Origin: Streptomyces sp. NBC_00341
GTDB lineage: Bacteria; Actinomycetota; Actinomycetes; Streptomycetales; Streptomycetaceae
Direction of reading: 5' to 3'
Assembly (NCBI RefSeq): GCF_041435055.1
Contig: NZ_CP108002.1
Location: 8,680,001 to 8,744,000 of the forward strand
Length of the DNA: 64,000 nt
A program made the translations under genes and the position numbers. How positions within the stretch are numbered: the first letter of the stretch is position 1; each line of letters begins with the position of its first letter. Positions 29,237 to 64,000 of the stretch are shown here, piece after piece. Under the pieces are notes generated by a model that was not told the DNA's origin, did no database searches, and saw only the letters and a list, made by a program, of their open reading frames with translations.

Positions 29237-29291
29237 GGGCGGTTCTCCTGCGGGGTCGTCGGGTGGCCGGTGGGTCGCGAACGCCGTCATT

Positions 29292-31924: not shown

Positions 31925-31960
31925 AGATGCTCCTGAGGACGGGGACCGGCAAGCGGCTGA

Positions 31961-31989
31961 ATGGTATCGATAACACTCCACGTGAACAA
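31961..31989 (-). promoter_or_regulatory. Promoter and operator of the isomerase-kinase-lacI operon
   Basis: On the minus strand TTGTTC (31984-31989) and TACCAT (31961-31966) are 17 bases apart. The near-palindrome TGGTATCGATAACA (31962-31975, plus-strand reading) covers the -10 region, so a bound LacI protein would block polymerase. Confidence 0.6.
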
Positions 31990-32058
31990 GGTGGGCGAGA
32001 TGATGACCAGTAAGTACCCGCCCTGAAGTGCAGATCTGTAGAAGTGCAAGAGAAACCC

Positions 32059-32087
32059 TTGTCTCGACCTCATGGTGTCGTTAACAT
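32059..32087 (+). promoter_or_regulatory. Promoter and operator of the mannan uptake/hydrolase operon
   Basis: TTGTCT (32059-32064) and TAACAT (32082-32087) are 17 bases apart. TGGTGTCGTTAACA (32073-32086) overlaps the -10 and matches the site at 31962-31975 in 12 of 14 bases and in the same orientation. Confidence 0.6.
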
Positions 32088-32194
32088 CCTGGCAATCCGG
32101 AGCGCGGAGACGAACGGCGTACGCGCATCCGGTGGATCTCCACACCGCGCCCCGGAGCCACGGATCCCCCGGGGGTCCAGAGGGAAGTGAACCC

Positions 32195-35282: not shown

Positions 35283-35377
35283 CCCCGGCCGCCGAGGCGG
35301 CACGCGACAGCCCGCCCGCCGCCTCGGACCAGCGGCCCCCGCCCCGACGCCCCGAGCCGAACCCGAAAGGCACCCCG

Positions 35378-36553: not shown

Positions 36554-36631
36554 CCGTAAACCCCGCCGTCCGCCCCACGTCCTGCTACTCGCCCCCGAAC
36601 CGGCACCACGCCAGAGCGGAGAAGCCTCTCC

Positions 36632-39721: not shown

Positions 39722-39766
39722 CCGCCAGGTGCGGGTTCGGACCGCTGCCGGAGCACGCCGCCCGGT

Positions 39767-39808
39767 GGGCCGGGGCGTGGACAGTCACCGCTGTCCACGC
39801 TCCGGCCC
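39767..39808 (+). terminator. Terminator after the mannan operon
   Basis: An 18-bp stem, GGGCCGGGGCGTGGACAG (39767-39784) and CTGTCCACGCTCCGGCCC (39791-39808), with one G-U pair and a 6-base loop. It lies between the convergent GH38 gene and the SDR relic. Confidence 0.85.
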
Positions 39809-39827
39809 CTGCCCCGAGAGGCGGGCA

Positions 39828-40531
39828 TCACCGGTACACGTCCGCGTCCACCGGCTCGTCCGCGTTCTCGGAATCGATCAGGAAGCGCCAGCAGTCCGGG
39901 CGCGAGCCGTCCAGGTCGGGTGAGCGCCACCGCGGTCCCACCGTGCGGCTCCAACTCGTGAGCGAGCACGAACGCCATGCGCAGCACACTGTTCTTGACC
40001 AGCTCGTAGAAGTACGAGTTGCGGTAGCGCGCCGCGTTGTACGCCGATGTTCCATCGGTCATCTCGACCACGAGCCCGCCCGGCCGGCGCACCAGCAGCG
40101 GCAGCAGGAAGTGGCTGGTGACCGCGTGGTCTCCACGCCCAGCCGGAGCAGCCGCAGCCCGTTGTCGAGGTCGTGTTCCCACACCGGTTCATCGAACGCG
40201 AACAGCTTCTCACCGCCCCAGATGTCGTTGACCAGGACGTCGAGCCGGCCCTGCTCGGCATCGATGCGTCCGGCCAGCGCACGGACCTCCTCGGCCACCA
40301 GATGGTCGGCCGGCACCGCGATACCGGTTCCGCCCGCAGCGGTGACGAGCTCCGCGGTCTCCTCGATCGTCTCGGGCCGGTCGTACTCCGAGCGCCGCTC
40401 CCGCGTCGTGCGCCCGGTGACGTATACGGTGGCGCCCGCGGCGCCCAACCGGACCGCGATGCCGCGCCCCGCGTGGCACCCGCGACCAGGGCGATCTTCC
40501 CTTCGAGGTCCGGTTCCGGTGTTCCGGGCAT
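39828..40531 (-). pseudogene. Short-chain dehydrogenase gene broken by frameshifts and an internal deletion
   Basis: It starts MPGTPEPDLEGKIALVAGAT (ATG 40531), then shifts frame near 40470 to GRGIAVRLGAAGATVYVTGR and DVLVNDIWGGEKLFAFDEPV. It shifts again near 40115 to TSHFLLPLLVRRPGGLVVEM and YELVKNSVLRMAFVLAHEL, and once more near 39915. There the C-terminal PDLDGSRPDCWRFLI follows directly, whereas intact relatives (as I recall them, near 300 residues) have roughly 70 further residues between. Three frameshifts plus a deletion make this a genuine relic, not a sequencing slip. Confidence 0.75.
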
Positions 40532-40651
40532 GAATCCCATGGAGTTCCCTGTCTGTCCGCACGGCTTGGCCCGCGCTCCGTTGTCGGCGCCGACCGTCCC
40601 GCCATGCTCGACCCGAAACCCGACATCTTGTGTCGTATATGCCGGGAAGGA

Positions 40652-40679
40652 CCCCCGCGAGTCGTTCTGCTCGCGGGGG
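40652..40679. terminator. Hairpin terminator after the GH30 gene
   Basis: CCCCCGCGAG (40652-40661) and CTCGCGGGGG (40670-40679), an 8-base loop, with further G-C pairing outside the arms. It lies just past the 3' end of the minus-strand GH30 gene. Confidence 0.7.
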
Positions 40680-40741
40680 CCCTCCGCTCCGGCGGCTGCC
40701 GGGCCCGGCCCGATGGCCGTGGCCCGCCCGGACCGAACGCG

Positions 40742-42646
40742 TCAGCCGCCCAGCGAGAACGCCTGCGCCGATGATCCGTCGCAACTCTGCTGCGACAGCC
40801 TGGCCCCGTCGGCGGTGGAGGCGCCGTCCACGGACAGGCACTTGCCGCTGTTGCGTGCGACGAAGCGGTACCGCCCCGCCGTGCCGGCGGACTCCGCCTT
40901 CCACTGCTGGTTGGCGCCTCCCACGTACGTCCACAGGTGAACCCTGGTGCCGGCCGCGGTGGCACCGGGGCCGCCGTCGACGTCCCACACCTTGGTGTTG
41001 TGCCGGTTGACGACCTGGTAGGTGCCGTCCCCGACGGGCCGGAACTGCCAGCTCTGGTTGGCTCCGGTGCCACAGCTCCACTGCTGGAGCGCGGTTCCGT
41101 CGGCGGTGCCCCAGTCGGCGGCGTCGAGGCAGGCACCGCTGCCGATGTTACTGACCCGGTACCAGGCGGCCGGATCGATGGAGCCCTCGGCGGGCGGCTC
41201 CGTCGTGCCGCCGTCGGTGCCGCTCCACACGAAGGTGGCGACCGCGCCGGCGGGCAGTGTGTAGACGAGGGACTTCCCGTTGTCGGTCAGCGAGAACCGC
41301 TGCGCGCCGGAAGCGGTGTTGACGACGTACGCGGCACGGGTGCCGTCAGGGTTCTGGAAGGCGACGTTCTCCACACCGCCGTTGCCCTGGCTGGTGGAGC
41401 CGATGCGGGTGGCGCCGGGCCTGACGAACTTGCTGACGTGGCCGAGGACGTAGTACTCGGCGTTGCGTGTGACGTTGCCGCCCGCGATCTCCACGACTCC
41501 GTTGCAGCGATCGGCGCAGCCGCCCTGGTGCGGGCCGCCGTTCTGGTCCAGGGCGAGGTTCCAGTCGACGACCGTCTCGCCGCCGTTGCGCATGTTCTGC
41601 ACGACGAGGTTCTCGGCGTGCCACTTGAGGGTGTCGGCGAAGGTGGTGGACCGGTCGGCGCTCTCGGTGCCGGAGCACTCGGTGAAGAAGACACGCTTCC
41701 CCACGTCGATGACCTGCTGCTGCGCGGCGGGAGTTCCGCCGTAGCAGTGGAAGGCCGCGCCGATCACCCGGTTGATGCCCTGGGTCCCGTTGAACACGCC
41801 GATCGGGTAGTCGGGGTGGTCCCAGTTGTGGTCGAACGCCAGGAGATTGGTGGGCAGGCCGGCCGAGGTGAGGGCGCGGTCGAGCACCTTGATGAAGTCG
41901 GCCTGCTGCGACGACGTCATGGTCATCGACGGGTAACTCGCCGCGAACTCCGGCTCGTTCTGGACGCTCAGGTCGGTGAGGGTGATGCCCTGCTGCCCGT
42001 ACGCCTGGATCGCCTTGACCAGGTAGTCGGCGTATGCCTGATAGCTCTCGGGCTTGAGGCTGCCGCCGTTGAGGGCGTTGTTGGTCTTCATCCAGGCGGG
42101 CGGGGTCCAAGGGGTGCCCATGAAGCGGATCGAGGAGTTGACCGCTGTGGCCTGCTTGAGGACCGGGATGATCTCGGCCTTGTCCCGGTCGATGGAGAAG
42201 GACCCGGGCGTGTCCTCGTAGGTGTAGAGGCTGCTGTCGGCGTTGAAGTCGCTGCTGCCGAGGGGCTGGCGCAGGTAGGTGAGCCCGATGCCGTCACCGC
42301 CGGTGGAGAACAGCGAGCCCATGAGCGCGTCGCGCTTGTCCTGTGGAAGGCCCTGGATGAGGTGGGCGGAGGCGCCGGTGACCGAGGCGCCGGCCCCGGT
42401 GAACCGCTGGCCCTTGCTTGTGCCGTCGATGCGTATGTCGACGGGCTGCGCCGATTCGTCGAACGGGACGGTGCCCTCTGCGGAGAGCTTCTTTCCGCCG
42501 TCGGGGGTGGTGACCCATACCTGTGCCGTGGGGTCGGCGGCCTGCGCGGCTGTACCGCTGCCGGCCAGGCCGATGGCCGCCGCGGCCATCACGAGGGCGG
42601 CGCCTGCGGCGCGCGTCCGGGGGCGGAGGGGACTGGCGTGGAACAT
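40742..42646 (-). CDS. Secreted GH30 glycosidase with C-terminal CBM13
   Basis: 634 residues. Signal peptide RTRAAGAALVMAAAAIGLAG, cleaved near AAQAADP. The GH30 (beta/alpha)8 catalytic domain has GTPWTPPAWMKTNNAL, the acid/base in LSVQNEPEFAASYPS and the nucleophile in VFFTECSGT. A beta-sandwich then gives TLPAGAVATFVWSG. From about residue 500, a ricin-type CBM13 with repeated QxW (GTALQQWSCGTGANQSWQF, TRVHLWTYVGGANQQWKAE, ARLSQQSCDG). GH30 enzymes of this sort act on beta-1,6-glucan, glucosylceramide or related beta-glycosides; which one is open. ATG at 42646 has AAGGAGAG about 8 bases upstream. Divergent from a TetR gene. Confidence 0.85.
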   Translation of the reverse strand: MFHASPLRPRTRAAGAALVMAAAAIGLAGSGTAAQAADPTAQVWVTTPDGGKKLSAEGTVPFDESAQPVDIRIDGTSKGQRFTGAGASVTGASAHLIQGLPQDKRDALMGSLFSTGGDGIGLTYLRQPLGSSDFNADSSLYTYEDTPGSFSIDRDKAEIIPVLKQATAVNSSIRFMGTPWTPPAWMKTNNALNGGSLKPESYQAYADYLVKAIQAYGQQGITLTDLSVQNEPEFAASYPSMTMTSSQQADFIKVLDRALTSAGLPTNLLAFDHNWDHPDYPIGVFNGTQGINRVIGAAFHCYGGTPAAQQQVIDVGKRVFFTECSGTESADRSTTFADTLKWHAENLVVQNMRNGGETVVDWNLALDQNGGPHQGGCADRCNGVVEIAGGNVTRNAEYYVLGHVSKFVRPGATRIGSTSQGNGGVENVAFQNPDGTRAAYVVNTASGAQRFSLTDNGKSLVYTLPAGAVATFVWSGTDGGTTEPPAEGSIDPAAWYRVSNIGSGACLDAADWGTADGTALQQWSCGTGANQSWQFRPVGDGTYQVVNRHNTKVWDVDGGPGATAAGTRVHLWTYVGGANQQWKAESAGTAGRYRFVARNSGKCLSVDGASTADGARLSQQSCDGSSAQAFSLGG

Positions 42647-42665
42647 GTGCGGCTCTCCTTCGGTC

Positions 42666-42710
42666 GTGTCGCTCGTGTCGCTCGTGCCTGTCGTTCCTGT
42701 CGTTCCTGCG
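42666..42710 (-). repeat. Five degenerate 9-bp tandem repeats in the GH30 leader
   Basis: Units GTGTCGCTC (twice), GTGCCTGTC, GTTCCTGTC and GTTCCTGCG follow one another without gaps, about 10 bases upstream of the ribosome site of the GH30 gene (which is read on the other strand). The repeat is in the untranslated leader if the ATG at 42646 is right. Confidence 0.7.
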
Positions 42711-42808
42711 GGGAGGCGCGGCTGCCGTCGGGTTCCGCCGCCGGCCGCGGGCAAGGACATGCCGTATCCCTTCCGGCCGTGGCGGGGCGTGTTCCTGGGG
42801 AGGACGGC

Positions 42809-42846
42809 GATATAGAAGCACACCTACTAAGTGGTTAGTAAGTGGT
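42809..42846. promoter_or_regulatory. Putative TetR operator overlapping the GH30 promoter
   Basis: TACTAAGTGGTTAGTA (42825-42840) is a palindrome with 6-bp arms. TAAGTGGT is also directly repeated (42828-42835 and 42839-42846). A TATATC -10 for the GH30 gene lies at 42809-42814 on the minus strand, so the operator covers its -35 region. Confidence 0.6.
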
Positions 42847-46955: not shown

Positions 46956-47780
46956 TCAGCCCTGCGCCAGCTCCGCCACGGGCTGCCACTTCTCCCACAC
47001 GGCGAGTCGCTGCTCGTAGTCGGCCTTGGCGATGCCCAGCGGCGCCGCGCCGAAGAAGCAGCGCAGCGGCGGCTCGTCGGCGTCGACGATCTCCAGCACG
47101 GCGGCGGCGGACGCCGCAGGGTCGCCCGGTGTACCGACACGCTTGCGGCGCTGCTCCTGCACCTCCTTGTGGAAGTCGGCGTACGCGGGCAACGGGTCGG
47201 ACGTGCTCGATGACGAACCCGCCCAGTCGGTGGCGAAGCCTCCCGGCTCGATCAGCGTGACCTTGATGCCGAACGGCGCCACTTCCTGGGCCAGCGCCTG
47301 GCTGATGCCTTCGAGCGCCCACTTCGACGCGTGGTAGATCCCGACCAGCGGGAAGGCGCTGATGCCTCCGATGGAAGAGACCTGGAGAATATGGCCGCTA
47401 CCCTGCTCGCGCAGCAGCGGCAGTGCCGCCTGGGTGATCCACAGGGCGCCGAACAGGTTGGTGTCCAGTTGTGCGCGCGCCTCGGCCTCGGTGAGTTCCT
47501 CGACCAAGCCGAAGTGGCCGTAACCGGCGTTGTTGACCACCACGTCAAGACGCCCGAACCGTTCGTGCGCCTGCTGTACGGCGGCGAAGCCGGCGTCACG
47601 GTCCGTCACGTCGAGACGTAGAGGCAGCAGCCGTTCTCCGTACTTCTCGCGCAGGTCACCCAGTGTGGAGAGGTCGCGCGCGGTCGCGGCCACCGAATCG
47701 CCGCGTTCGAGGGCGGCGATGGCCCACTCCCTGCCGAAGCCGCGCGAGGCGCCGGTGATGAACCAGATCTTCTGCGTCAT
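46956..47780 (-). CDS. Short-chain dehydrogenase/reductase (retinol-dehydrogenase-like)
   Basis: 274 residues, classical SDR. FITGASRGFGREWAIAALERG (7-27), NNAGYGHFGLVEE (about 83-95), QVSSIGG then YHASKWALEGISQALAQEV (about 134-163) with Tyr and Lys of the active site. The C-terminal part is typical of oxidoreductases acting on ketones or alcohols. ATG at 47780 has TGGAGGAG about 7 bases upstream. Alone on its strand; its 5' side borders the NRPS cluster leader. Confidence 0.85.
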   Translation of the reverse strand: MTQKIWFITGASRGFGREWAIAALERGDSVAATARDLSTLGDLREKYGERLLPLRLDVTDRDAGFAAVQQAHERFGRLDVVVNNAGYGHFGLVEELTEAEARAQLDTNLFGALWITQAALPLLREQGSGHILQVSSIGGISAFPLVGIYHASKWALEGISQALAQEVAPFGIKVTLIEPGGFATDWAGSSSSTSDPLPAYADFHKEVQEQRRKRVGTPGDPAASAAAVLEIVDADEPPLRCFFGAAPLGIAKADYEQRLAVWEKWQPVAELAQG

Positions 47781-48465
47781 GGTGTGCTCCTCCAGAAACC
47801 CGTCATCCGCTCGGACAACATCTCCCGCCAGACAACACCTTCGAGTGGACTCGAAGGCAAACGGTTCGGTGCGTGGCGGCCGCCGAAAACGCTGAGATCG
47901 GCTGTGCCCCGGCCGACGGCGGGCCGGTCTCACGCCGTGCGACGGACGCCCCTTTCCCTCACCTTGGCTGGGCGGGGACGGGGCGCAGACGGGGCGCGTA
48001 CCCGGCGTACGGGAGCGCGGTGTGATCTGGGTGTGTCAGAACGTCAGCGGGCGTACGCCGCCGGTTATCCAAATTTGAACGGGTCGTATTGAGTGATACT
48101 CGCACAATAGGGACATGGGGTGGCTGAATGTTTCTGTTGTGATCCCACTGGCATATGTCTCGGGGGTGTCTCGGCCGTTGTAGGCCCATTGGGTACTCGC
48201 GGGCAATGGGCTGAATTTGCATCTTCGGCCGTCGAAGGTCCTCTATTGTGATTGGCGTGAGCGAGCCAAGTCGGGGGAGTCCGGCTCGGTCATCGGTGTA
48301 ACGTCGGTATCCCGAGGCGTAACGAATCTTCGCCCGCGTGGTCGAGATATCGCACCGTGAGGGGCGGGCGGTTCGGCGGGTCGCTGCGGACGTCGATTTG
48401 CGGCGCGCCCGAAAAAGGCTGATGAACATGCCGTGGAAAGTGTGAGAACAAGTGGGGGGACGGTC
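47781..48465. promoter_or_regulatory. Upstream region of the MbtH-NRPS cluster
   Basis: 685 bases without a supported gene. Candidates for control sites are the perfect palindrome GGCGTACGCC (48050-48059), the inverted repeat GCCCATTG...CAATGGGC (48184-48191 and 48204-48211), and three TCGGTxx heptamers (48286, 48293 and 48304), the last two 11 bases apart as in SARP sites. No iron box was found. Confidence 0.4.
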
Positions 48466-48705
48466 GTGACCAATCCTTTCGATGACGAGTCGGGGCGGTT
48501 CGTGACGCTGGTGAATGGCGAGGGTCAGTACTCGCTGTGGCCGGCGCACATCGAAATCCCGGGCGGCTGGAGCGTGGGCGGCCCGGAAGGATCGCGTCAG
48601 GAGTGTCTGGACGCGATCGAGGCCGGGTGGACCGATATGCGGCCCACCAGCCTGGTGCGGATGATGGAGGCCGACGCCGGACAGGGGACGCGTCCGAGCC
48701 CTTGA
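48466..48705 (+). CDS. MbtH-like NRPS accessory protein
   Basis: 79 residues, exact family length. MbtH proteins bind A domains and help them fold or work. All signature positions are present: NPFDDESG, the NGEGQYSLWP stretch, IPGGWSVGG, and IEAGWTDMRPTSL. The GTG at 48466 has GGGGGG 6 bases upstream. It precedes the NRPS gene by 395 bases in the same direction. Both products very likely act together. Confidence 0.95.
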   Translation: MTNPFDDESGRFVTLVNGEGQYSLWPAHIEIPGGWSVGGPEGSRQECLDAIEAGWTDMRPTSLVRMMEADAGQGTRPSP

Positions 48706-49100
48706 TGTCGCCGTGGACGGCCACCAGGCCGAGCATGTCCGGCGCTCCAGTCCGATCGCCTTCGCTCGCAATCGAGCAGAATCGATCAGGCTGGAGCGGT
48801 AATCGTTCACGCATGGCGCATGAGCGATCATGTTGCCTTTATTTGGCTTTCGTGAATCATTGATGGACTGCCTGGCGGATCGTCCTCGATATGTGAGGTC
48901 AGTGGAGTGACTGTCGATGGAGTGACTGCCGATCCACTGGGTCGGCAGGGGCTCCATCAGTATCGATGCCAAGGGTTCGGCGACGTTTCTCTCTGATTTC
49001 ATCTGCCCGCTTTCGGCTGAAGGCGATGCGTCGGCGCGGGCGATTTTGTCGCGCCCTCTTCGTCCCCCCGTAAAAACTCTCCCCGAAGGTGTGATCCGGC
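48706..49100 (+). promoter_or_regulatory. Leader between mbtH and the NRPS gene
   Basis: 395 bases with lower G+C. GGAGTGACTGTCGAT (48904-48918) is directly followed by GGAGTGACTGCCGAT (48919-48933). CAGTGGA (48900-48906) and TCCACTG (48933-48939) flank the pair and can form a stem. This may be a second promoter-operator or an RNA leader. No gene is supported here. Confidence 0.45.
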
Positions 49101-52100
49101 ATGCGCGAAAACAACTCCGACTCCTCAGGCCCTGTTTCCGAAGATTTGTTCGGGGTGACCGCGGCTCAACAAGGGGTCTGGTACGGGCAACTGGTCGATC
49201 CACAGAGCCCCAAATACAACATCGGGGAATGCGTCGAGGTTCGGGGCGGCCTCGACGAGGTGTTATTCGCCGCCGCGCTCGACCGGGCCGCCGCACTGTG
49301 CGACAGCCTCAACACCGTGTTCGTCACCGAGGACGGCGCGGTCCGCCAGCGTGTCGTCCGCCGCTCCCCGGACGCGACCAGCCTGCTCCGCCGGGTCGAC
49401 CTGTCCGATGCCGACGACCCCATCGGCGCGGTCGAACGCTACCTGGCCGACGACATGGCCGCCGTCGACACGATCGAGGCCCCGTCCCACCACTTCGCCC
49501 TGCTCCGCATCAGCGACCGACTGCACTACTGGTACGTGAGGTTCCACCACATAGCCGTCGACGGCCTCGGCGGCTCCGTTTTCACCCGCACCGTGGCCGA
49601 CCTCTACGGGCGCGCGGTGCGGGGCGAGAACCTCGACACGGCCGAGGTGCCCGCCGCGTCCCTGCGCGGTCTCGTCGCCGACGAGGCGGCCTACCTCGAA
49701 TCGGACCGCTACGAGGCCGACCGCGCCTACTGGACCGGCCGATTCGCGGACCTGGCCGCCGATCGCGCCGCATCGGACCCCCACGGCACTGCTGACACGC
49801 ACGCCGGCCGGGCGCTCATCCGCCGGCGCACCGACGCTCCTGCGCCGGTCACCCTCGACGCACCGGAGATCCGGCTGCACACCGGCGATGCGCTGCCCGT
49901 CGCCGTCCTCGACGGCCTGCGCACGATCGCCTCCGCCAACCGCACCACGTGGAGCGCCGTCCTCGTGAGCGCGGTCGCCGCCTACATCGGCCGGGCCACC
50001 GGAACGCAGGACGTCACCGTGGGCCTCGCCTCCAACGGCCGTCACAGCGGACTCCGCCACATCGTCGGCATGACCTCCAACATCCTGCCGCTGCGCCTCA
50101 CCGTCACCCCCGAGATGACGGTCAGCTCCCTCGTACGCGCCGTCGCCGCCGAGATGCGCGGCGCCCTGCGGCACCGCCGGTTCTCCCGCGAACAGCTGGC
50201 GCGTGAGCTGAACATGGCCGACGGCGCGGCCCGCCTCACCGGTGTCGTCGTCAACATCATGGGCTACGACTACGACTTGGACTTCGCCGGCAGCCCCGGC
50301 GCCTCCCGCGTGCTGTCCGTCGGACCGGCCGACGACGTGTCCTTCTTCGTCTCGGAACGGGCCGATGACAAAGGGCCGTTGATCGGATTCGACGCCAGCC
50401 CGGAGCTCTACGGGATGGAGGACGTGCGGCTGCTCCAGCAGGCCGTCGTCTCCTTCCTGTCCGCTCTCGCCGACGCGGACCACGACCTCCCGCTGTGCGA
50501 CCTGCCGTTCCTCGACGAGGCCGCCACCGAGGCCCTCCGCGCACAAGGGCGCGGTGCCGCCATGCCGCCGGAGGCCGTGGCATCGAGCCTGCCGGAGGCC
50601 TTCGGCGCGCAGGCCCGCCGGACGCCCGACGCCCCTGCCGTGGTGGACGGCGCGGACACGCTCACGTACCGGGAGCTGGCCGGAGCGGCGGAGGACCTCG
50701 CGGGTGCGCTGGCCGGCTGGGGCATCGGCGCCGAGGACGGCGTCGGCGTGCTCGTCGGCCGCTCGGCGGCCGTGCTCTGCGCCACGCTCGGCGCGGTCCG
50801 CGCCGGAGCGGCGTACGTACCGATGGACGCGGCCTGGCCCGGCGAACGGCTCGACCGCGTCAGGGAAGCGGCCCGCGTACGCGCCCTGGTGGCCGACGAG
50901 GCGACGGCCCGGCAGCCCTGGGTGCGGGAGCAGACAGCCGCGGGTCTGCCCCTGATCGTCCTCGACGCGCTCGGCGGTGTCCTGCGCGGCGCCCCGCCGC
51001 GGCCGGGACCGCTGCCGCGCACGATCCGCGGTGACCGGCTCGCCTACGTGATGTTCACCTCCGGGTCCACCGGACTCCCCAAGGGTGTCGGCGTCACCCA
51101 CGCCGACGTCCTCGCGCTGGCCGCCGACAGCACCTGGACGGGCGGCGTCTGCGACGCGGTGCTGATGCACTCGGCGTACGTCTTCGACGCCGCCACCTTC
51201 GAGATCTGGGCGCCGCTCCTCAACGGCGGCCGCGTGGTCGTCGCGCCCCCCGGCGTCCTGGAGGCACGGGGCCTCCACGACACGGTCGAGCGGCACGGAG
51301 TCACCGCGCTGTTCCTGACGACGGCCCTGTTCAACGTGATGGCCGAGGCGGACCCGGCCGCGTTCGCCGGGCTCCGCATGGTCGCCGCCGGCGGTGAGGC
51401 GGCGACGCCGGACCTGATGCAGCGGGTGGCCGCCGCGACGCCAGGCACCCGCGTCCTGCACGTCTACGGCCCCACGGAGACCACGACCTTCGCCACCCGC
51501 CACCCGGTCGCCCCCGGTATCGGGGGCGTTCCGCCCATCGGCCGGGCCCTCGACGGGATGCGCCTGTACGTCCTGGACGACACCCTCGCCATGGTGCCGC
51601 CCGGTGTCGTGGGGGAGCTGTACGTCGGCGGCCACGGCGTCGCCCGCGGCTACCAGGGCAACCCCGCGCTGACGGCCACCCGGTTCGTCGCGGACCCGCA
51701 CGACGCGTCGGGCCGCCGGATGTACCGCACGGGCGACCTCGTGCGCTGGAGCGCTCGCGGCGACATCGAGTACGTCGGGCGGGCGGACGGCCAGATCAAA
51801 CTCCGCGGTTTCCGCATCGAGCCGGCCGAGACCGAGAACGTCCTGCTGGCCGCCCCGGACGTACGGGCCGCCTGCGTCGTGGTCCGTGAGGACATACCGG
51901 GCGACCGCCGGCTCGTCGCCTATGTCGTACCGGCTCCCGGTACCCGGCCGGACGCTTCCGCCCTGGCCCGCCGAGTGGGCCGCGCACTGCCCGCGTACAT
52001 GGTGCCCTCCGCGTTCGTGACGCTGGACGCACTGCCCCTGAACCCCAACGGCAAGGTCGACCGGCGCGCTCTGCCCGCACCCCGCGCCGTCACGGCCGGG

Positions 52101-55100
52101 GGCCGTGCCCCGCGCACCCCCTACGAGGAGGTCCTGGCCGGTCTCTTCGCCGACATCCTCGGCGTGGCGGCGGTCGGTATCGACGACAACTTCTTCGCTC
52201 TGGGCGGCCACTCACTGCTCGCCACCCGTCTCACCGGCCGGGTGCGGACGGCCCTGGGCGCCGAACTCGGCCTGGGCACCCTCTTCGACCACCCCACCGT
52301 CGCTTCCCTCGCCGCGGTCCTGGACACCGCCGGTGCGACCCGGCCCGTCCTCTCCCCGCAGCAGCGGCCCGAAGCGGTGCCGCTGTCCTTCGCGCAGCAG
52401 CGCCTCTGGTTCCTCAACCGGGCGGAGGGCCCCGACAGCAGCTACAACGTCCCGCTCGTCCTCGAACTCGACGGCCCCCTGGACGCGGACGCCCTGCGCG
52501 GCGCCCTCGCCGACGTGGTCGCCCGGCACGAGAGCCTGCGCACGGTCTTCGCCGAGCACGACGGCGTCGCCCGCCAGGAAGTCCTGGACGCGGACGCCGC
52601 CGCCTCGCTCGTCCCCCTCGCCGTCGAACAGCCCCGGGCCGACGACAACGCCGGCAGCTGGACCGAGGAGACGGTGCGTCACCTGACCACCGCACCCTTC
52701 GACCTCGCGGGCGACACCGCGATCCGGGCCCATCTGCTCCGCCTGGGGACCGACCGCCACGTCCTCGTCCTCGTCCTGCACCACGTCGTCGCGGACGGCT
52801 GGTCCCTCGCCCCGCTCAGCCGCGACCTCACAGCCGCCTACCGCGCCAGGAGCGAGGGCACGGGCGGCGGCGGCCCGGACTGGGCTCCGCTGCGCGTGCA
52901 GTACGCCGACTACGCCCTCTGGCAGCGCCGGCTGCTCGGCGACGACAGCGACCCGGACAGCCTGGGCGCCCGACAGGCCGACTTCTGGAAGGAGGCGCTG
53001 CACGGCGCCCCCGACCTGCTGGACCTGCCCCTCGACCGCCCCCGCCCGGCCGTGCCCAGCCACCGGGGCGACGCCGTCCCCTTCGAGCTGCCCGCCGCCG
53101 CGCACGCCGACCTCACCCGGCTCGCCCGCACCGCCGGCTGCACGCCCTTCATGGTGCTCCAAGCGGCCCTCGCCGTGACGCTTCAGACCCACGGCGCCGG
53201 TTCCGACATCCCGCTGGGCACCGCCGTGGCCGGACGCACCGACGAGGCCCTGGACGACCTGGTCGGGTTCTTCGTCAACACCGTCGTCCTGCGCGCGGAC
53301 CTGTCAGGCGACCCGCCGTTCCGGCAACTCCTCGACAGGGTCAAGGAGTTCGACATCGCCGCCCTCAGCCACGGCGACATCCCCTTCGAGCGGATCGTGG
53401 AGGCCGTCAACCCCGAACGGTCCGGCGACCACCACCCCCTCTTCCAGACCATGCTGGTCCTTCAGAACCAGGAGCGTACGAGTCTCGATCTGCCGGGCGT
53501 CACCGTCCACGACCGGTCGCGGCACCGCGGGGGCAGCAAGTTCGACCTGACGTTCTCTCTCACCGAAGTGACGGGACCCGCAGAAGAATCCCGGAGCACG
53601 AGATCCGCCGGAGTCACCAGACCCGCCGGGACCGGGGGACAGGCCGACCCGCCGCGGAGCGCCGCCACGGGCCCCCTGCCCGGCGCCGCAGACGTCGGCG
53701 GAGGCATCCGCGGCTACCTGGAGTACGCGACCGACCTCTTCGACGCCGCCACCGCGCGCGCCCTGAGCGCCCGGTTCGCCCACGTCCTCACCCTGGCCGT
53801 GGCAGACCCGGGCCGGCCCATCAGCGACCTGGACCCGCTCACCCCCGCCGAGCGGGACCGCCTCCTGGCGCGGGGACGCGGAGCGGAGCGGCCCCTGCCC
53901 TCCCGTACCGTCACCGAAGCGGTCCGGGAACGGGCCGCGCGCGAACCCCGTGCCCTCGCCGTGCGCGACGCGCACACGAGCCTCACCTACGCCGAGCTCG
54001 ACGCACGCGCCGACACCCTCGCCCACCTCCTGCGCGAACGCGGCGCGCGCCGTGAGACCAGGGTGGCCATCGCGGCGCCGCCCTCCGTGGACACCGTCGT
54101 CGCCATGCTGGCCGTGCTGCGGGCCGGCGCCGCCTACCTGCCGGTCGACCCGCAGTACCCGGCCGCCCGCATCCGCCACATGCTGGCGGACGCCCGCCCC
54201 GTCCTGCTGCTCACCACCACGGACGTCCACGCCGAGCTGTCCGACTGCGGCGTACCCTGGCTCGCCCTCGACACCCCGGCCGCTCCGGTCACGGGCCGTG
54301 CCGGGCGCATCCTGGACACACCCCACCCGGCGGACCCCGCGTACGTCATCTACACCTCGGGATCCACCGGCCGCCCGAAGGGCGTGGTCGTCTCGCACGC
54401 CGCACTGGCCAACCACATGGCCTGGATGGCGGGGCACCTGGCGATCACTCCGGACGACAGGGTGCTCGCCCGCACCTCCTCCAGCTTCGACGCCTCCGTG
54501 TGGGAGCTCTGGCTCCCGCTGATGAACGGCGCCGAAGTCTGCCTGCTGCCGGACGGGGCCAACACCGAACCCCGCGCCCTGGTCTCCTGGATGAGCCGAT
54601 TCGGCGTCACCGTCGCCCAGTTCGTCCCCTCCCACCTGACCCTCGTGCTCACCGAGGCGGCGCACGCCGCGCCGCTCCCCGGCCTGCGCGCCGTGCTGTG
54701 CGGCGGCGAACCGCTGCCGCGCGCTCTCGCCGACGAGGTCGCCGAGCTGTGGCGGGCCGAGGTGCACAACCTCTACGGACCGACCGAGGCCACCATCGAC
54801 GCCACCGCCCACCGGATCGACGTGCCGGGAGACGGCGGGCACGCGGAGTCCGGCACACCGTACGAGACCGTGCCGATCGGCCGCCCCGTCGACACCATGC
54901 GTGTCTACGTCCTCGACGGCCGGCTGCGGCCCGTCGCTCCGGGCGTCACCGGTGAGCTGTACCTGTCGGGTCCCAACCTCGCCCGCGGCTACCTCGACCG
55001 CCCCGGCCTGACCGCCGCGCGATTCGTCGCCGACCCGTTCGACGGGGCGGGCGCGCGGATGTACCGGACGGGCGACCTCGTGCGCTGGAACCACCAAGGT

Positions 55101-58100
55101 CTGCTCGACTACGTCGCACGCGCCGACGACCAGGTGAAACTGCGGGGCTTCCGCATCGAGCTGGGCGAGGTCGAGGCCGCACTGCTGGCGATGCCCGCCG
55201 TCACCGCCGCCTGTGCCGTGATCCGTGAGGACACACCGGGCGTGCGCCGCCTCGTCGCCTACGCCGTCACCGGCGACCCGGCCCAGCGCCCCGTCACCCT
55301 GCGCGACGCCCTCGCCGAGAACCTGCCGCACTACATGGTGCCCGGTGCCGTCGTCATCCTGGACGACCTCCCGCTCCTGCCCAACGGCAAGGTGGACCGG
55401 CGCGCCCTGCCGGAGCCCCCGCGGGGCTCGGACAACACCGACGGAGCGGGGCGGCACACCCTCCAGGAAGGCCTGCTCGCCGGCATCTTCGCCGACGTTC
55501 TGCGGCGGCCCCTGGTGGGTTCGCACGACAGCTTCTTCGAGCTGGGCGGGCACTCGCTCCTCGCCATGCGCGTCGTCAGCCGCGTCCGCGCCGTCCTCGG
55601 TGCCGAGATCGCCGTACGCACCCTCTTCGAGCACCCGACCGTCGCGGGCCTGGCCCGCGTCCTGGACACCCGGAGCCGGGCCCACCCGCCGGTCGTACCC
55701 GCGGCGCGGCGGCCCGATCCGCTGCCGCTGTCCTTCGCGCAGCAGCGCCTGTGGTTCCTCAACCGGTTCGAAGGACCCAGCTCCGCCTACAACATCCCGC
55801 TCGTCCTCGAACTCGACGGGGCCCTGGACACCGACGCCCTGCGTGCCGCGCTGCGTGATGTCGTGGAGCGGCACGAGGCGCTGCGCACCCTCTTCCCCGA
55901 ACGCGACGGCGTTCCCCATCAGGTGGTCCTTCCCACCGGGACCGCCACACCCCGGCTGCCTGTCGTGAGCACGGCACCCGCGGATCTGGAGGCCGCCGTC
56001 CTGGCCGCCGTGCGCGAGCCGTTCGACGTCGTCACGGACCCGCCGCTGCGCGCCCTCCTCCTGCGGTCCGCGCCCGGCCACCACGTCCTGGTGCTCGTCC
56101 TGCACCACATCGCGGGCGACGGCTGGTCCCTCGCCCCGCTCGCCCGCCACCTCGGCGAGGCCTACGAGGCCCGTCTCACGGGCCGGGAGCCCGAACCGGC
56201 GGCCGGCACCCCGCTCCAGTACGCCGACTACACCCTCTGGCAGCACGCCGCCCTGGGCGACGGCGTCGCACCGCAGAGCGTCCTGCGGCAGCAACTCGAC
56301 CACTGGCACACCGCCCTCGCGGGACTGCCCGGCCTCATCGACCTCCCCCTGGACCGGCCGCGCCCGGTCACCACCGACCCCTCAGGAGCCGTCCACACCT
56401 TCGACGTTCCGCCCGCCCTCCACGCCCGGCTCCTGCGCCTGGCACGGGAGTCGGGAAGCAGCCTCTTCATGGTGCTCCAGGCGGCGGTGGCCACCCTGCT
56501 GCACCGGCAAGGCGCGGGGGACGACATCCCGCTCGGCTCACCCGTCGCCGGCCGCACGGACGAGGCACTGGAGGAGCTGGTCGGGTTCTTCGTCAACACG
56601 CTGGTCCTGCGCACGGACCTGTCGGGCAACCCGACCTTCCACGAACTCCTGCTGCGCGTGAGGGAATTCGACCTGGCCGCCTACGCGCACCAGGACGTGC
56701 CCTTCGAGCGTCTCGTGGAGAGCGTCAACCCCGTCAGGGCGCGCAACCACCACCCGCTGTTCCAGACCATGCTGGTCCTGCAGAACCAGGAGACCGCCCT
56801 CCCCGGCCTGCCCGGCCTCAACGTCGAGAGCCGGCTCGTCCACAACGGGCTGAGCAAATTCGACCTCACCTTCGCCTTCGACGAGGAACGCGACGACGGC
56901 GGCCTCAGCGCCGGGATCGAGTACGCCACCGCCCTCTTCGACCGGTCCACCGTCGAAGCCCTCGCGGACCGCCTGGTCCGGCTCCTGGAGCAGGCGGCCG
57001 CGAACCCCGCCCTGCCCCTGACGGGCTACGACCTGATGACACCGGACGAGCACGCCCGCGTCACACACCGGGGCACCGGCGGAGCTCTGCCCGCGCACAC
57101 CGAGGACGCCACCCTGCCCGCGCTCTTCGCCGCCCAGGCCCACCGCGTACCGGACGCCGTGGCCGTCACCGGCTACGGCGGCGCCCTCACCTACGCCGAA
57201 CTCGACCTGGCCTCCGCCGACCTGGCCCGCGCCCTGGCCGGCCTGGGCGTCCGCCCCGAGACCGGGATCGGCGTACTGCTCTCCCGGTCACCGGCGGTCG
57301 TGACGGTGTCGCTGGGCGCGGTCCGCGCGGCCGGCGCGTACGTCCCGCTGGACGCGCGCTGGCCCGCGGAGCGGCTGGAACAGGTGGCCGCAGTGGCAGC
57401 CGTGCGGGTCCTCGTCGTCGACGAGGACGCCCTCGCCTCTCCCTGGGTGGTACAGACCGCGCGCCGGATTCCGGTCGTGGTCGTGGACCGGCTCGGCCGG
57501 ATCCTCCGCGGCGCGCCCGAGCAGCCGGGACACCCCGCAACCGTACGGAGCCCCGGCGCCCTCGCCTACGTCATGTTCACCTCCGGCTCCACCGGCCTGC
57601 CCAAGGGCGTCGGAGTCACGCACGCCGACGTGGTGGCGCTGACAGCCGACTCCGCCTGGCAGGGCGGCGCCGCCGACGCCGTCCTGATGCACTCGGCGTA
57701 CGTCTTCGACGCCTCGACGTTCGAGATCTGGGCCCCGCTGCTGCACGGAGGGACGATCGTCGTCGCACCGGACGGCGTCCTGGAGGCCGGCGCTCTCGGC
57801 GATGCCGTGCAGGAGCACGGAGTGACCGCGGTCTTCATGACGACGGCCCTGTTCAACGTGATCGCCGAAACCGATCCGGGTGCCTTCACCGGCCTCCGCC
57901 TCGTCTGCGCCGGAGGAGAACTGGCCTCACCGGACGCGATGCAGCGGGTCGCGGGCACCGCGTCCGGCACGCGCGTCCTCCATGTGTACGGACCCACCGA
58001 GACGACCACCTTCGCCACCCGCTACGACGTGCCGGCCGGCCTGCCGTCCGGTCCGCCACCCATCGGGCGCGCCCTGGACGGCATGCGGCTGTACGTCCTG

Positions 58101-61100
58101 GACGGCTCCCTGGGCCAGGTCCCGCCGGGCGTCACGGGCGAGCTGTACCTCGCCGGACGCGGCGTGGCACGCGGGTACACCGGCCTCCCCGGCCTGACCG
58201 CCACCCGGTTCGTCGCCGATCCGTTCGACCCGTCGGGCGGCCGCATGTACCGCACCGGCGACCTCGTGCGGTGGACCCGCGACGGACAGATCGCCTACGT
58301 GACCCGCGCCGACAGCCAGGTGAAGCTGCGCGGCTACCGCATCGAACTCGGCGAGATCGAGGGGGTGCTGGCCTGCTGCGAGGGCGTCGCCGACGCCTTC
58401 GCCGTCGTCCGCGAGGACACCCCCGGCGACCGGCGGCTCGTCGCGTACGTGGTGCCCGCGGGCGGGGCGCGCCCCGAACCCGCCGAGCTCGCCCGAGCCG
58501 TCGGCCGGTCCCTGCCCGCCTACATGGTGCCCTCCGCGTTCGTCCTGCTGGAGGCCCTGCCGCTGACCGTGAACGGGAAGGTGGACCAGGGCGCCCTGCC
58601 CCGGCCCGCGCACCACGCGCCGGTCCGCGGGCGCCCCGCCCGCACCGCGCGCGAGGAGATCCTCTGCGGACTCTTCGCCGATGTGCTCGGCCTCGACGGG
58701 GCAGGTGCCGACGACGACTTCTTCGCCCTGGGCGGCCACTCCCTGCTCGCCACCCGGCTGGCCGCACGCATCCGCACCGCGCTCTCCGTCGAGGTCCAGG
58801 TCAAGACCGTCTTCGAGCACCCCACACCGGCCGCGCTCGCCGCCACACTGGACGGTGCGGAGAAGGCCAGGAACCGGCTGGAGCGTGCTCCGCAGCGACC
58901 CGATCCGCTGCCGCTGTCCTTCGCCCAGCAGCGCCTGTGGTTCCTCAACCGGTTCGAGGGGCCCAGCGCCACGTACAACGTGCCGCTGGTGCTGCGCCTG
59001 GACGGCCCGCTCGACGCGGAGGCCCTGGAGAGCGCCCTCGCGGACGTCGTCGAACGCCACGAGAGCCTGCGCACCGTCTTCCCCGAGACCGACGGCGTGG
59101 CGCGCCAGCTGGTCCTCGACGCCAGTGGTGCCGACCTCGACCTGAGCCCCCGCGACACCGACCCCGCCCGCCTGGACGAGGTACTGACCGCCGAGGTCGC
59201 GCACACCTTCGACATCGGCACCCAACTACCCGTGCGGGCAAGGCTGCTCCGGCTCGACGCCGAATCCCACATCCTCGTGCTGCTCGTCCACCACATCGCG
59301 GGCGACGGCTGGTCCCTCGCCCCGCTCGCCCGCGACCTCGGCGACGCCTACCGGGCACGCGCCGAGGGCGAGGAGCCGGCCTGGACGGAACTCGGCGTCC
59401 AGTACGCCGACTACACCCTGTGGCAGCGCGCGCTGCTCGGCGCCGAGGACGACCCGTCGAGCCAGGCAGCCCGCCAGCTGGACTTCTGGCGCACCGCACT
59501 CGCCGGAGCCCCCGACCTGCTCGACCTGCCGTGCGACCGAACGCGCCCCGCCGTCACGGCGTACGGCGGCGAAGCGTTCGCCTTCCCTGTCGACGCGGAC
59601 ACCCACCGGGCCCTCGCGGAACTCGCCCGGTCCCGCGGAAGCAGCCTCTTCATGGTGCTCCAGGCGGCCCTGTCGGTTCTGCTCTCCCGGCACGGCGCCG
59701 GTGAGGACATCCCGCTCGGCACCGCCGTCGCCGGACGCACCGACGAGGCACTCGACGATCTGGTGGGCTTCTTCGTCAACACCCTCGTCCTGCGCACCGA
59801 TCTGTCCGGAGACCCCACCTTCGCCGAAGTCATCGACCGAGTAAGAGAGTTCGACCTCGCCGCCTACGCCCACCAGGACGTGCCGTTCGAACGGCTGGTG
59901 GATGCCCTCAGCCCGGTGCGGGCCCAGAACCACCACCCGCTGTTCCAGACCATGCTCGTCCTCCAGAACCAGGCGGACACCAGCGTCGACCTGCCCGGTC
60001 TCACGGTGACCGGGCAGCCTGTGCACACCGGCATCAGCAAATTCGACCTGACCTTCACCTTCACCGAGACGCGCGACGGCGAGGGCCGGCCCGCTGGACT
60101 CGACGGCATCCTGGAGTTCTCCACCGAACTCTTCGTTCCCGCCACCGCTCACGCCCTGGCCGCACGTCTGGCCCGCCTCCTGACCGCGCTCTCCGCAGAC
60201 CCCGGCCGGCGCGTCCACGCGGTCGAGGTCCTGGAGACGGCCGAGCGGCAGAGCCTGGAGCGGGCCGCACACGGCACCGCCCGGCCCCCGACCGCGCGCA
60301 CCGCGCCCGAGGCGTTCCGCGGGCAGTCCGCCAGAACCCCTGCGGCGATCGCCGTGCGGGACGGCGCGCACCGGCTCACCTTCAGTGAACTGGACTCCCT
60401 CTCGGACGACTTGGCACACCATCTGCACGACCGGGGCATCGGCCGCGGCGACCTCGTCGCCCTCGCCCTGGAAGGCACGGCCGACCAGGCCGTCGCGATG
60501 CTGGCGGTGGCCAAGGCCGGGGCCGCCTACCTGCCGGTCGACCTGGAGTACCCCGAGGCGCGGATCACCTACATGCTCGACGACGCCCGCCCGGCGCTGC
60601 TCCTCACCCACGGCACCCGCGCCGCGCGGTACGCGGCGTCCGTCCCCTGCCTCGCGCTGGACGTCCGCTCAGCCTGGTCCACAGGGCGCGGGGCCCCGCC
60701 CGGCGCCGGACCGGCCCCGCTCGACGCGGCGTACGTCATCTACACCTCGGGCTCCACCGGCCGCCCCAAGGGCGTCGTCGTCACCCACGCGTCCCTGACC
60801 AACCACATGGCCTGGATGGCCGGTCACCTCGCGCTCATCGACGACGACCGGGTCCTGGCACGCACCTCCCCGAGCTTCGACGCCTCGGTCTGGGAGACCT
60901 GGCTGCCGCTGCTGCACGGCGGCTCCACCTGCCCCGTGCCGGTCGCCGCCAACCACGACCCCGCCGCCCTGCTCGCCCGCATGCGCGACGCCGGGGTGAC
61001 CCTCGCCCAGTTCGTGCCCTCGCACCTCTCGGTCGTCCTCACAGAGACCGGCCAGGAGGAGGCGCCCGAGACGCTGCGAGCCGTCCTGTGCGGAGGCGAA

Positions 61101-63635
61101 CCCCTGCCCATGTCCTTGGCCGAGCGCGCCGGACAGGCCTGGCGGGTCGAGGTGCACAACCTGTACGGCCCCACAGAGACCACCATCGACGCCACCGCCC
61201 ACCAGCACCGGAGCGGGGAGCAGGCCACCACGGCGGGGGAGGCGGGCGTGCCGCTCGGGCGCCCCGTCGACAACACCCGCGCCTACGTCCTGGACGCCGG
61301 GCTCCGGCCCGTACCGCCGGGCGTCACCGGAGAGCTCCACATCGCCGGTGAAGGCCTCGCCCGCGGCTACCTGGGTCGCCCGGCCCTGACCGCCACCCGG
61401 TTCGTCGCCGATCCCTACGGCCCCGCCGGCAGCCGCATGTACCGCACGGGAGACCTCGTAAAACGGGACGCAAGCGGCCTGCTCACCTACGTCTCGCGCG
61501 CCGATCACCAGGTCAAGCTGCACGGCTTCCGCATCGAGCTCGGCGAGATCGAGGCCGCGCTCACCGGGCTCGACGGCGTCGCCGCCGCCTGCGCCCTGGT
61601 CCGCGAGGACCGGCCGGGGGAGCGGCGCCTGGTCGCCTACACCGTTGCGGACCGGCGCGGTGACAGCGAGCCCCTCACGGACAGCGAACTGCGGACCCGG
61701 CTCGCCTCCGCCCTGCCGCCGTACATGGTGCCCGCCGTCTTCGTCGCCCTCGACGCGCTGCCGCTCCTGCCGAACGGCAAGACCGACCGCAGGGCCCTGC
61801 CCGCCCCGGCGCGCCCCGCCGCCACCCGGCCGGGCGGGCAGCCGCGCACACCGCAGGAACGGGTCCTGTGCGACGTCTTCGCCTCCGTCCTGCGCACCCC
61901 GGCCGTCCGCACGGACGACGACTTCTTCGCGCTCGGCGGCGACAGCATCCTCTCGATCCAGCTCGTCAGCCGGGTCCGGGAGGCGGGGTTCGGGGTCACA
62001 CCCCGCGACGTCTTCGTCCACCGCACCCCCGAGGCCATCGCGGCCGCCGCCACCGCGCTCGACCAGGACACCGCCGCGCAGGCCGACCAGGGCACCGGCG
62101 AGATGCCGCCGACACCCATCGCCGCCTGGCTCCTGGAGCGGCCCGGCACCACGGACGGCTACAACCAGTCCGGAGTACTGAGCACGCCCGTGGGGGCCGA
62201 GGAGGACACGCTCGTCGCGGCCCTCCAACTCCTCATCGACCACCACGACATGCTCCGTCTGCGCATCACCCGCCCGGCCGGGGGCGAACCCGTCCTCGAA
62301 GCCCTGCCACCCGGCGCCGTCCCGGCCCGTCGCCGCTTCACCCGCGTCGACATCGCGGGTCTGGACGCGGCAGCCGCCCGCGCCGCCACCACAGAGGCCG
62401 GCGAACAGGTACGCAAGCGGCTGCGGCCCGCAGAAGGGAACGTGCTCGAAGCCGTCTGGTGCGACGCCGGACCGCACGCCCGTGGCCGGCTGCTGCTCGT
62501 CGTGCACCACCTCGCCGTCGATGCCGTCTCCTGGCGCATCCTCGCCGCGGACCTGGCCCGCGCGTGGCAGACCCTCACCGAAGCCGACACCGTAGGAGAG
62601 AGCCCTGCCGCCGCCCTGCCCGCCGTCACCACGTCCTACCGAAGCTGGGCGCACCTCCTCGCGTCCCAGGCGCGGAGCACCGAACGGGAAGCCGAACTGC
62701 CCCTCTGGCAGGGCGTGCTGAGCACCCCGGACCCCCAACTGGGATACCGGCCGCTCGACCCACACCTGGACACCGCCGACGGCACCCGCACCCTCGTTAC
62801 CCACCTGCCCGCCACCTGGACACAGTCGCTGCTCACCACCGCCCCCGGCGCCTTCCACGCGGGTGTGGACGACATCCTGCTCACGGGCCTCGCCCTCGCC
62901 GTCCGCACCTGGCGGGCGGAACGGGACGCGGGCCCCGGCGCGTCCCGGCCCGCCGGCACCGGCGTCCTCATCGACCTGGAGAGCCACGGCCGCGAGCAGA
63001 TCGCCGACCACATCGACCTCTCCCGCACCGTCGGCTGGTTCACCAGCCTCTACCCCGTCCGGCTCGACCCCGGACCCGTAGACGCCCGCGGACCAGGAGG
63101 CTTCGACGCCGCACTGGTCGAACGGGCGGTCAAACGCGTCAAGGAACAGCTGCGGGCCGTGCCCGACCACGGCGTCGGCCACGGAATGCTGCGCCACCTC
63201 AACCCGGCGACCCGCCCCCGGCTGACCACCGGGACAGAGCCCCAGATCGGCTTCAACTACCTCGGACGGTACGCCGCTTCACACGGCGCGCCGGACGGCG
63301 GAACGGGCGCCGACTGGGACGTACTGCTCGACGGCGGCGGGCCGCGCGGCCAGGACCCGGACATGCCCGTGCACCACGTCCTCGACATCAACGCGCACAC
63401 CGAGGACCTGCCGGAAGGGCCGCGACTGGTGACCCGCTGGACCTGGCCCAGCGACCTCCTCAAGGAGGAGGACGTGGGGGTGCTGACCGACGCGTTCACG
63501 CGGGCGCTGCGCGCCATCGCGGACCACGCCGAACGGCCCGACGCGGGCGGCTACACGCCGTCCGACCTTCCCCTGGTATCGCTCAACCAGGCCCAGATCG
63601 ACCGACTGCAGAACAAGTGGGGTGGACGCAAGTGA
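49101..63635 (+). CDS. Four-module nonribosomal peptide synthetase, (C-A-T)x3, C-A-T-E
   Basis: 4,844 residues. C1 (HHIAVDG at 149-155) is of the EntF/DhbF starter type. A1 about 500-1000, T1 Ser1038. C2 HHVVADG 1227, A2 about 1600-2107, T2 Ser2152. C3 HHIAGDG 2335, A3 about 2664-3170, T3 Ser3214. C4 HHIAGDG 3397, A4 about 3724-4234, T4 Ser4282 (GGDS). The E domain 4337-4820 has [10 protein letters not shown] at 4469 and NYLGRY. C2 to C4 look LCL. My reading of the pocket residues is A1 D-A-F-F-A-G-V-T-F-K, A2 D-A-W-Q-L-G-L-I-D-K, A3 D-A-F-F-C-G-V-T-F-K, A4 as A2. This suggests an aliphatic residue (Ile/Val type) in 1 and 3 and Gln in 2 and 4, with D-Gln at the end. No thioesterase is present, so the chain passes to the next protein. 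ATG at 49101. Confidence 0.93.
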
Positions 63636-64000
63636 CCGGTTTCCAGCTGGAGGACGTACTACCGCTGACGCCGCTTCAGGCAGGCATGCACTTCCATGCC
63701 CTGTACGACTCGCACGCCGTGGACGTCTACACCGCGCAGTTCGTCTTCGACCTCGAAGGCCCCGTCGGCGTCCCCGTGCTGCGCGCCGCCATCGGCAGCC
63801 TGCTGCGCAGGCACGCCAACCTGCGGGTCGGCTTCCTCCACGAGGGCCTGGACGAGCCGGTGCAGGCCGTAGCCGCCGAGGTGCCGGTGCCACTGGAGGA
63901 ACTCGACCTGACCGGTACGCACTCCACGGGCACGACAGAGCAACGCCTCACCGCGTTCCTCGCCGCCGACCGCACCCGCCGCTTCGACCTGACCACCCCG
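63632..64000 (+). CDS. Next NRPS subunit, N-terminal condensation domain (cut by window edge)
   Basis: 123 codons are visible. The start GTG at 63632 overlaps the preceding stop (GTGA), so translation is coupled. [20 protein letters not shown] (about 5-24) is the first core motif of a condensation domain, followed by [11 protein letters not shown] and [20 protein letters not shown]. Coming after an E domain, it should be a DCL type. The HHxxxDG motif and the rest lie beyond the window. Confidence 0.9.

Follow-up and report, generated by a model that had tools for sequence, protein, structure and literature searches.

A three-gene Streptomyces cassette with a repeated aliphatic-glutamine synthetase unit, predicted to make an N-acylated hexapeptide aldehyde

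The window analysed here is a stretch of 64,000 nucleotides from Streptomyces sp. NBC_00341 (bases 8,680,001–8,744,000 of a contig of 8,775,322 bases, in a genome of 9.06 Mb), towards the right end of which lie an mbtH-like gene and two genes encoding nonribosomal peptide synthetases (NRPS), here called NRPS1 and NRPS2 (Table 1). Judging from its genes and domains, the product of this mbtH-NRPS1-NRPS2 cassette is probably a flavopeptin-type aldehyde, a linear hexapeptide with an acylated N-terminus. The open reading frame (ORF) of NRPS1 is real and encodes 4844 amino acids (aa), within which profile searches matched five condensation-type, four AMP-binding, four AMP-binding_C and four carrier stretches; the HHxxxDG and carrier motifs are intact, and the protein is 99% identical to protein P0001 from Streptomyces sp. 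NBC_00304. An earlier note on this DNA had described the four modules of NRPS1 and proposed reading the contig further to the right. The assembly line does not finish at 63635, because the next gene, NRPS2, holds modules 5 and 6 and a reductase. The GTG start of NRPS2 (63632) overlaps the NRPS1 stop codon, and the gene ends 7.2 kb beyond the window, its Pfam and NCBIfam domains including a terminal thioester reductase. The four residues read at first are thereby extended to a predicted hexapeptide, with the adenylation domain A5 repeating the A1/A3 type for a third time; NRPS2, A5, the reductase and the mbtH gene had all been overlooked.

Table 1. Features of the cassette, in window numbering. 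A, adenylation domain; C, condensation domain (Cs, starter); T, carrier; E, epimerisation domain; R, reductase.
Feature	Position	Strand	Description
mbtH-like gene (79 aa)	48466..48705	+	A-domain partner protein; Pfam PF03621, E 4.9e-24; found by genome search
Spacer mbtH-NRPS1 (395 bp)	48706..49100	+	Probable promoter/leader
NRPS1	49101..63635	+	Cs-A1-T-C2-A2-T-C3-A3-T-C4-A4-T-E
C1	49140..50570	+	Predicted starter (lipoinitiating) condensation domain, from nearest solved relatives; HHIAVDG intact
A1	50571..52064	+	Predicted aliphatic (Ile/Val/Leu); code DAFFAGVTFK
A2	53892..55400	+	Predicted Gln; code DAWQLGLIDK
A3	57096..58589	+	Predicted aliphatic; code DAFFCGVTFK
A4	60285..61790	+	Predicted Gln; code DAWQLGLIDK
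E	62088..63620	+	Epimerisation domain, predicted D-Gln at position 4; fifth condensation-superfamily stretch, 3' of T4; HHLAVD motif
NRPS2 (L025)	63632..64000 in window, to 71200 (contig 8743632–8751200)	+	C5-A5-T-C6-A6-T-R, 2522 aa

The substrates were called by comparison of the pocket codes of the A domains. The ten pocket positions are numbered, and the Gln and Phe codes interpreted, by the GrsA/Stachelhaus scheme; at position 278 the alignment has a gap in A1, A3 and A5, where the residue was taken from the motif, and the tenth residue was assumed to be K. The codes of A1 and A3 differ at one position, and those of A2 and A4 are identical, one residue away from the Gln code, DAWQFGLIDK. 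In NRPS2, A5 has the code DAFFAGVTFK and A6 the Phe-type code DAWTVAAVCK. These codes are widely kept among homologues (in which a dash stands for position 278, F by motif wherever the motif was found). Among 108 full-length NRPS1 homologues, A1 reads DAF-AGVTF in 94 and A3 DAF-CGVTF in 106, A2 reads DAWQLGLID in 96, and A4 is DAWQLGLID (87), DAWQAGLID (15) or DAWQLGLVD (6). Module order and the Phe-type A6 are kept in the six-module relatives (n = 30), as DAWTVAAVC in 27 and DAWTAAAVC in three. More divergent A5 codes were found in two loci, L040 (DAFDAGVTF) and L057 (DAC-AGATF), and the A5 code of a further relative, L059, is DAFFLGVTF. In cyanopeptolin synthetases, modules 5 and 7, which incorporate Ile/Val, have the code DAFFLGVTFK (PMC2533009, Table 1), and the same code stands for Ile in aeruginosin-type clusters (PMC13122637). 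Because of this match, the aliphatic residue X is probably Ile/Val, perhaps Leu. In a search of the available literature for the pocket codes, DAFFLGVTF was the only one found, the codes of A1, A3 and A2/A4 giving no match. Scores against TycA and GrsA were 337.7 and 333.9 bits for A6, 252.6 and 230.6 bits for A1, and 322.9 and 279.1 bits for A2. The best matches of the A domains in the PDB, mostly two-module LgrA chains, indicated no substrate.

The structures nearest to C1 are 7c1k/7c1h/7c1p (201.9 bits), CDA peptide synthetase I (4jn3; 195.2 bits), ObiF1 (167.6 bits) and EntF (116.3 bits), all remaining structure matches lying below 60 bits. The top matches are presumably starter C domains, among them the lipoinitiating domain of rhizomide synthesis (the 7c1 entries); C1 is therefore starter-like, and the N-terminus is predicted to be acylated. 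An E domain is found solely after module 4, so the fourth residue should be D-Gln, and the twelve-residue opening motif of C5 is of a kind typical of D-accepting C domains. The pocket codes, the E domain 3' of module 4 and this C5 motif all support a predicted X-Gln-X-D-Gln for residues 1–4, the opening that the earlier note had proposed. The terminal reductase matches TIGR01746 (293.1 bits, cut-off 213.35; E 3.3e-87) and also PF07993, and contains the motifs TGASGFLG and YGQSKW; its structure matches are 8v1x (274.6 bits), MxaA (228 bits), peptide synthetase 4dqv (94.5 bits), carboxylic acid reductases and AusA (44 bits). Of 119 NRPS2 homologues fetched, 117 are full-length, and these carry the motifs TGA[ST]GFLG in 112 cases, Yxx[ST]KW and the Phe-type A6 motif in all 117, and the TTALF-type A5 motif in 113.

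In the proposed pathway, C1 would join an acyl-CoA from primary metabolism to an aliphatic residue, as its closest solved relatives suggest. Modules 2–6 would then add Gln, an aliphatic residue, Gln (converted to D by the E domain), another aliphatic residue and Phe, with the chain passing from NRPS1 to NRPS2 at the E/C5 junction, and the C-terminal reductase would use NAD(P)H to release the thioester-bound chain as a Phe-aldehyde, in a putative two-electron release. The predicted product is acyl-(Ile/Val)-Gln-(Ile/Val)-D-Gln-(Ile/Val)-phenylalaninal, the aldehyde of which may cap proteases at their catalytic residues by forming a hemi(thio)acetal.

The mbtH gene lies 5' of NRPS1 in all 33 relatives with a contig reaching that far, including all 30 six-module relatives (7 of the 40 contigs begin at or within NRPS1 or later and are uninformative on this point), and the gene order mbtH-NRPS1-NRPS2 is found in 30/30 six-module relatives. 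Of 199 genomes from the window's genus, 16, our own among them, contain a relative with at least 62% identity to the reductase region; the next best matches reach at most 48%. The gap between mbtH and NRPS1 measures 366–438 bp in 21 of the 33 relatives, despite its weakly conserved sequence. A conserved RNA leader in this gap was ruled out, as 20-bp blocks are 12–67% conserved among 32 sequences, our own included (with the omission of two relatives in which the gap had length 0, artefactually, because the reading frame was extended to an in-frame stop). The neighbouring genes were likewise ruled out as conserved tailoring genes: of those at 18–49 kb and 71–95 kb, just the one at 46956–47933 has a relative (L048, 96%) in the 40 loci (cut-offs E 1e-20, > 35% identity, more than half the length; mbtH outside the gene set), and the flanks of 29 relatives, with 397 ORFs, contain no family that occurs in more than eight loci. 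The cassette is, thus, limited to mbtH-NRPS1-NRPS2, because its flanking genes are not conserved. The proteasome subunit genes are distant, with two matches near 1.53 Mb, and, judged by position, none of the genes near the cassette is a candidate for self-resistance.

The earlier note had paired A1 with A3 and A2 with A4, and had attributed this pairing to the duplication of a dimodule. The pairing holds well: the motifs quoted for each type are present, the codes are near-identical within each pair, and protein identity is 67% for A1–A3 (67/64/61% within the A1/A3/A5 group) and 62% for A2–A4, against 45–49% between the two types and 47–52% to A6. A tree of 257 domains separates two clades, A1+A3+A5 (93 domains; support 1.0) and A2+A4 (62 domains; 0.996), from 71 other A domains, with A6 as a third clade. 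The same two clades, each with a support of 1.0, appear in a 229-domain tree, in which A1, A3, A5, A2 and A4 of 29 core lineages are each monophyletic by position (0.998–1.0), A1 and A3 are sisters without A5 (0.946), and A2 and A4 group together (0.915). The supports were computed on unrooted trees, from which 10 of the 40 loci, those without six A domains, were omitted; as outgroup, A domains were taken from 7 of 18 other-architecture loci (L068–L085) and the window's own genome, together with four fetched proteins in the 257-domain tree, and one of the 44 was dropped as a duplicate.

Along the gene, A1-T1-C2-A2 and A3-T3-C4-A4 align unbroken, with 47–74% protein identity per 100-residue window and 60–77% nucleotide identity; the T2/T4 window just past this alignment falls at 40% and 60%, respectively. 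Over the carriers, identity is 63% for T1/T3 and 44% for T2/T4. A5-T5-C6 repeats the first half of the X-Gln unit and is followed by the Phe-type A6. On the simplest reading of these sequences, an A-T-C-A(-T) block would have been duplicated after an earlier event giving A5, the C-domain part of this reading being unsupported. In the C-domain tree, C2, C3, C4 and C6 form one clade (1.0), separate from C1, from C5 (a clade of its own) and from the E domain (likewise a clade apart), and the pairs within it have low supports (C2+C4, with one C6, 0.247; C3+C6, 0.497). The proposed dimodule duplication is, thus, favoured by the A domains and by the unbroken alignment, with low supports for the corresponding pairing in the C-domain tree. 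The duplication is old and family-wide, being present in 30/30 six-module relatives. The likeness of A1/A3/A5 and of A2/A4 could instead reflect independent recruitment of domains of the same specificity, or later gene conversion. This alternative is unlikely, though it gains weight from the poorly supported pairing of the C domains on unrooted trees. It would fit with the clear homogenisation of two lineages (L057 and L059, described below), with a C2–C4 identity (62%) that barely exceeds that of C3–C4 (61%), and with the low T2/T4 identity; the unbroken alignment in the window and the grouping of A1 with A3, and of A2 with A4, in the core lineages argue against it. Most likely, the X-Gln pair goes back to an old duplication of A-T-C-A(-T), with copies that are re-homogenised in some lineages, as by gene conversion. 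The reading of the product as a hexapeptide lipopeptide aldehyde is independent of how the likeness of the A domains arose.

Homogenisation is seen in 2 of 31 six-module lineages and in 1 of the 108 NRPS1 homologues. L057 (Streptomyces noursei, complete chromosome) has 85% identity between A1 and A3 and 93% between A2 and A4, and L059 (Streptantibioticus silvisoli) has 92% and 65%; the medians of the 108 homologues are 67% and 61%, and non-homogenised lineages lie at 63–71% and 57–66%. The likeness in L057 and L059 is patchy, with windows of 96–100% third-position identity interleaved with windows of 56–84% (chance level 47%, from codon shuffling in NRPS1). The same homogenisation is present in P0096 (A1/A3 86%, A2/A4 92%), a protein from another strain with 87% identity to that of L057, and this argues against misassembly. 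Between aa 1604–2003 and 3721–4120 of the L057 NRPS1, the DNA of A2 and A4 is nearly identical save for one 50-codon window, a mosaic as by gene conversion. The homogenisation, then, looks like gene conversion within one gene. Homogenisation among the domains of one NRPS line is known from the daptomycin, A54145 and CDA systems (PMC4256081); the concerted evolution of A domains described there differs from the present case, which is restricted to A1/A3 and A2/A4 in few lineages. The Cys found at the variable pocket position of A3 is also present in A1 of L057, L059 and P0096. It occurs in A1 of P0102 too, without homogenisation (A1/A3 70%), so this Cys may be ancestral and is no proof of conversion.

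The view that no peptide with this opening had been described, expressed in the earlier note, is probably wrong, as the flavopeptins are very likely the product family. Flavopeptins are acylated peptide aldehydes made by a reductase-ended NRPS of Streptomyces NRRL F-6652 (PMC4071589, PMC8009326, PMC10548850). Six flavopeptins are described, besides a derivative with an N-terminal amine that served for comparison, and flavopeptins I and II inhibit the proteasome at low-micromolar concentrations (PMC8009326); they are grouped with acyl-capped peptide aldehydes that bind proteases as hemiacetals or hemithioacetals (PMC10548850). As described there, the flavopeptin system and the predicted one have in common the genus Streptomyces, an NAD(P)H-dependent terminal reductase, an N-acyl group and an aldehyde. 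Three NRPS orthologues, P0028, P0160 (188 members) and P0177, are named S. pratensis, with 80–81% protein identity, and strain ATCC 33331 is listed under that species. The original flavopeptin study, by Chen et al. in 2013, reportedly concerned lipopeptide aldehydes from a strain closely related to S. flavogriseus ATCC 33331. ATCC 33331 is the former S. flavogriseus strain, and S. pratensis is presumably the closest species to the flavopeptin producer; on this kinship, orthologues about 80% identical to the window's proteins occur in the producer's kin. The system is larger than first noted and most likely of a described type, not new in kind.

Other known systems appear more distant. Aldehydes of the fellutamide, leupeptin and tyropeptin type are likewise acylated short peptides with a C-terminal aldehyde and inhibit proteases or the proteasome. 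Tyropeptins differ in being shorter than the predicted hexapeptide and in having other residues, as do leupeptin and fellutamide, and fellutamide is fungal, unlike the Streptomyces cassette. Cyanopeptolin and aeruginosin-type synthetases share the DAFFxGVTFK code class for Ile/Val, and the cyanopeptolin synthetase also has a Phe-type code, DAWTIAGVCK (PMC2533009); they differ in residue order and product type, and they are cyanobacterial. Among the papers listed in a search on phenylalaninal-type or lipopeptide aldehydes, nothing nearer than the flavopeptins appeared.

Several points weigh against the predicted product and its assignment. Pocket codes alone are no proof of substrates, pocket position 299 is A or C here versus L in the known Ile code, and LgrA, 5u89, 8xjz and 6p1j outrank TycA and GrsA among the matches of A6. 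Neither an acyl-ligase nor a resistance gene was seen in the cassette. The best match of the R domain, 8v1x, is named merely "Type I polyketide synthase", and MxaA, the closest R domain with a name that tells of a pathway, makes alcohols, as does MxcG, by a four-electron release. The link to flavopeptins itself is drawn from compound class, reductase and taxon.

It is rather unlikely that the product is an acyl hexapeptide aldehyde of a separate, undescribed family: the passages available on flavopeptins state no residue order, and the codes of A1, A3 and A2/A4 had no match in the literature search, but class and release domain are the same, and orthologues are present in S. pratensis, presumably the species closest to the flavopeptin producer. 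More doubtful still is a fuller version, in which acyl-(Ile/Val)-Gln-(Ile/Val)-D-Gln-(Ile/Val)-Phe-al would be an undescribed family of protease inhibitors found in about one Streptomyces species in 12, with near-invariant codes, perhaps aimed at the producers' proteasome or at secreted proteases, and with A domains swapping pocket residues by gene conversion (as in S. noursei, in which A1 has the Cys of A3). It is improbable, a little more so than either of these, that the reductase acts twice to give a lipopeptide alcohol, or that the aldehyde is further changed; the best match of NRPS2 among reductase-ended NCBIfam profiles is the myxochelin synthetase MxcG (1135 bits, under the cut-off of 2300), and MxaA is a nearer match to its R domain than AusA, whereas the flavopeptins are reported as aldehydes. 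With the N-terminus presumably blocked by C1, an aureusimine-like cyclic imine is unlikely.

With the flavopeptin-type aldehyde as the preferred reading, a recurrent three-gene Streptomyces cassette is tied to a predicted protease-inhibiting peptide aldehyde, and product, target and role are directly testable, since the predicted peptide sequence is readable. The repeated modules, with more than 100 homologues, provide a natural data set on duplicated NRPS modules that stay apart or homogenise, and the homogenisation data bear on which A domains are swappable.

Directly 3' of NRPS2, at window-numbered 71223–74700 (L026), lie two genes whose translations, judged by eye, resemble FMN glutamate synthase and thiamine-diphosphate pyruvate oxidase; this pair does not adjoin the cassette in the 40 relatives. 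Elsewhere in the window, the region 28220–42823 has Pfam matches to a LacI regulator, a ROK protein, a sugar-binding protein, an ABC permease, GH76 and GH38, and includes a 589-aa gene (30212–31981) with no Pfam match. A second ABC permease was recognised by eye in the open frame at about 34440–35280, and a GH30 gene with a ricin-type lectin lies on the other strand. This carbohydrate-use locus looks like one for alpha-mannan utilisation.

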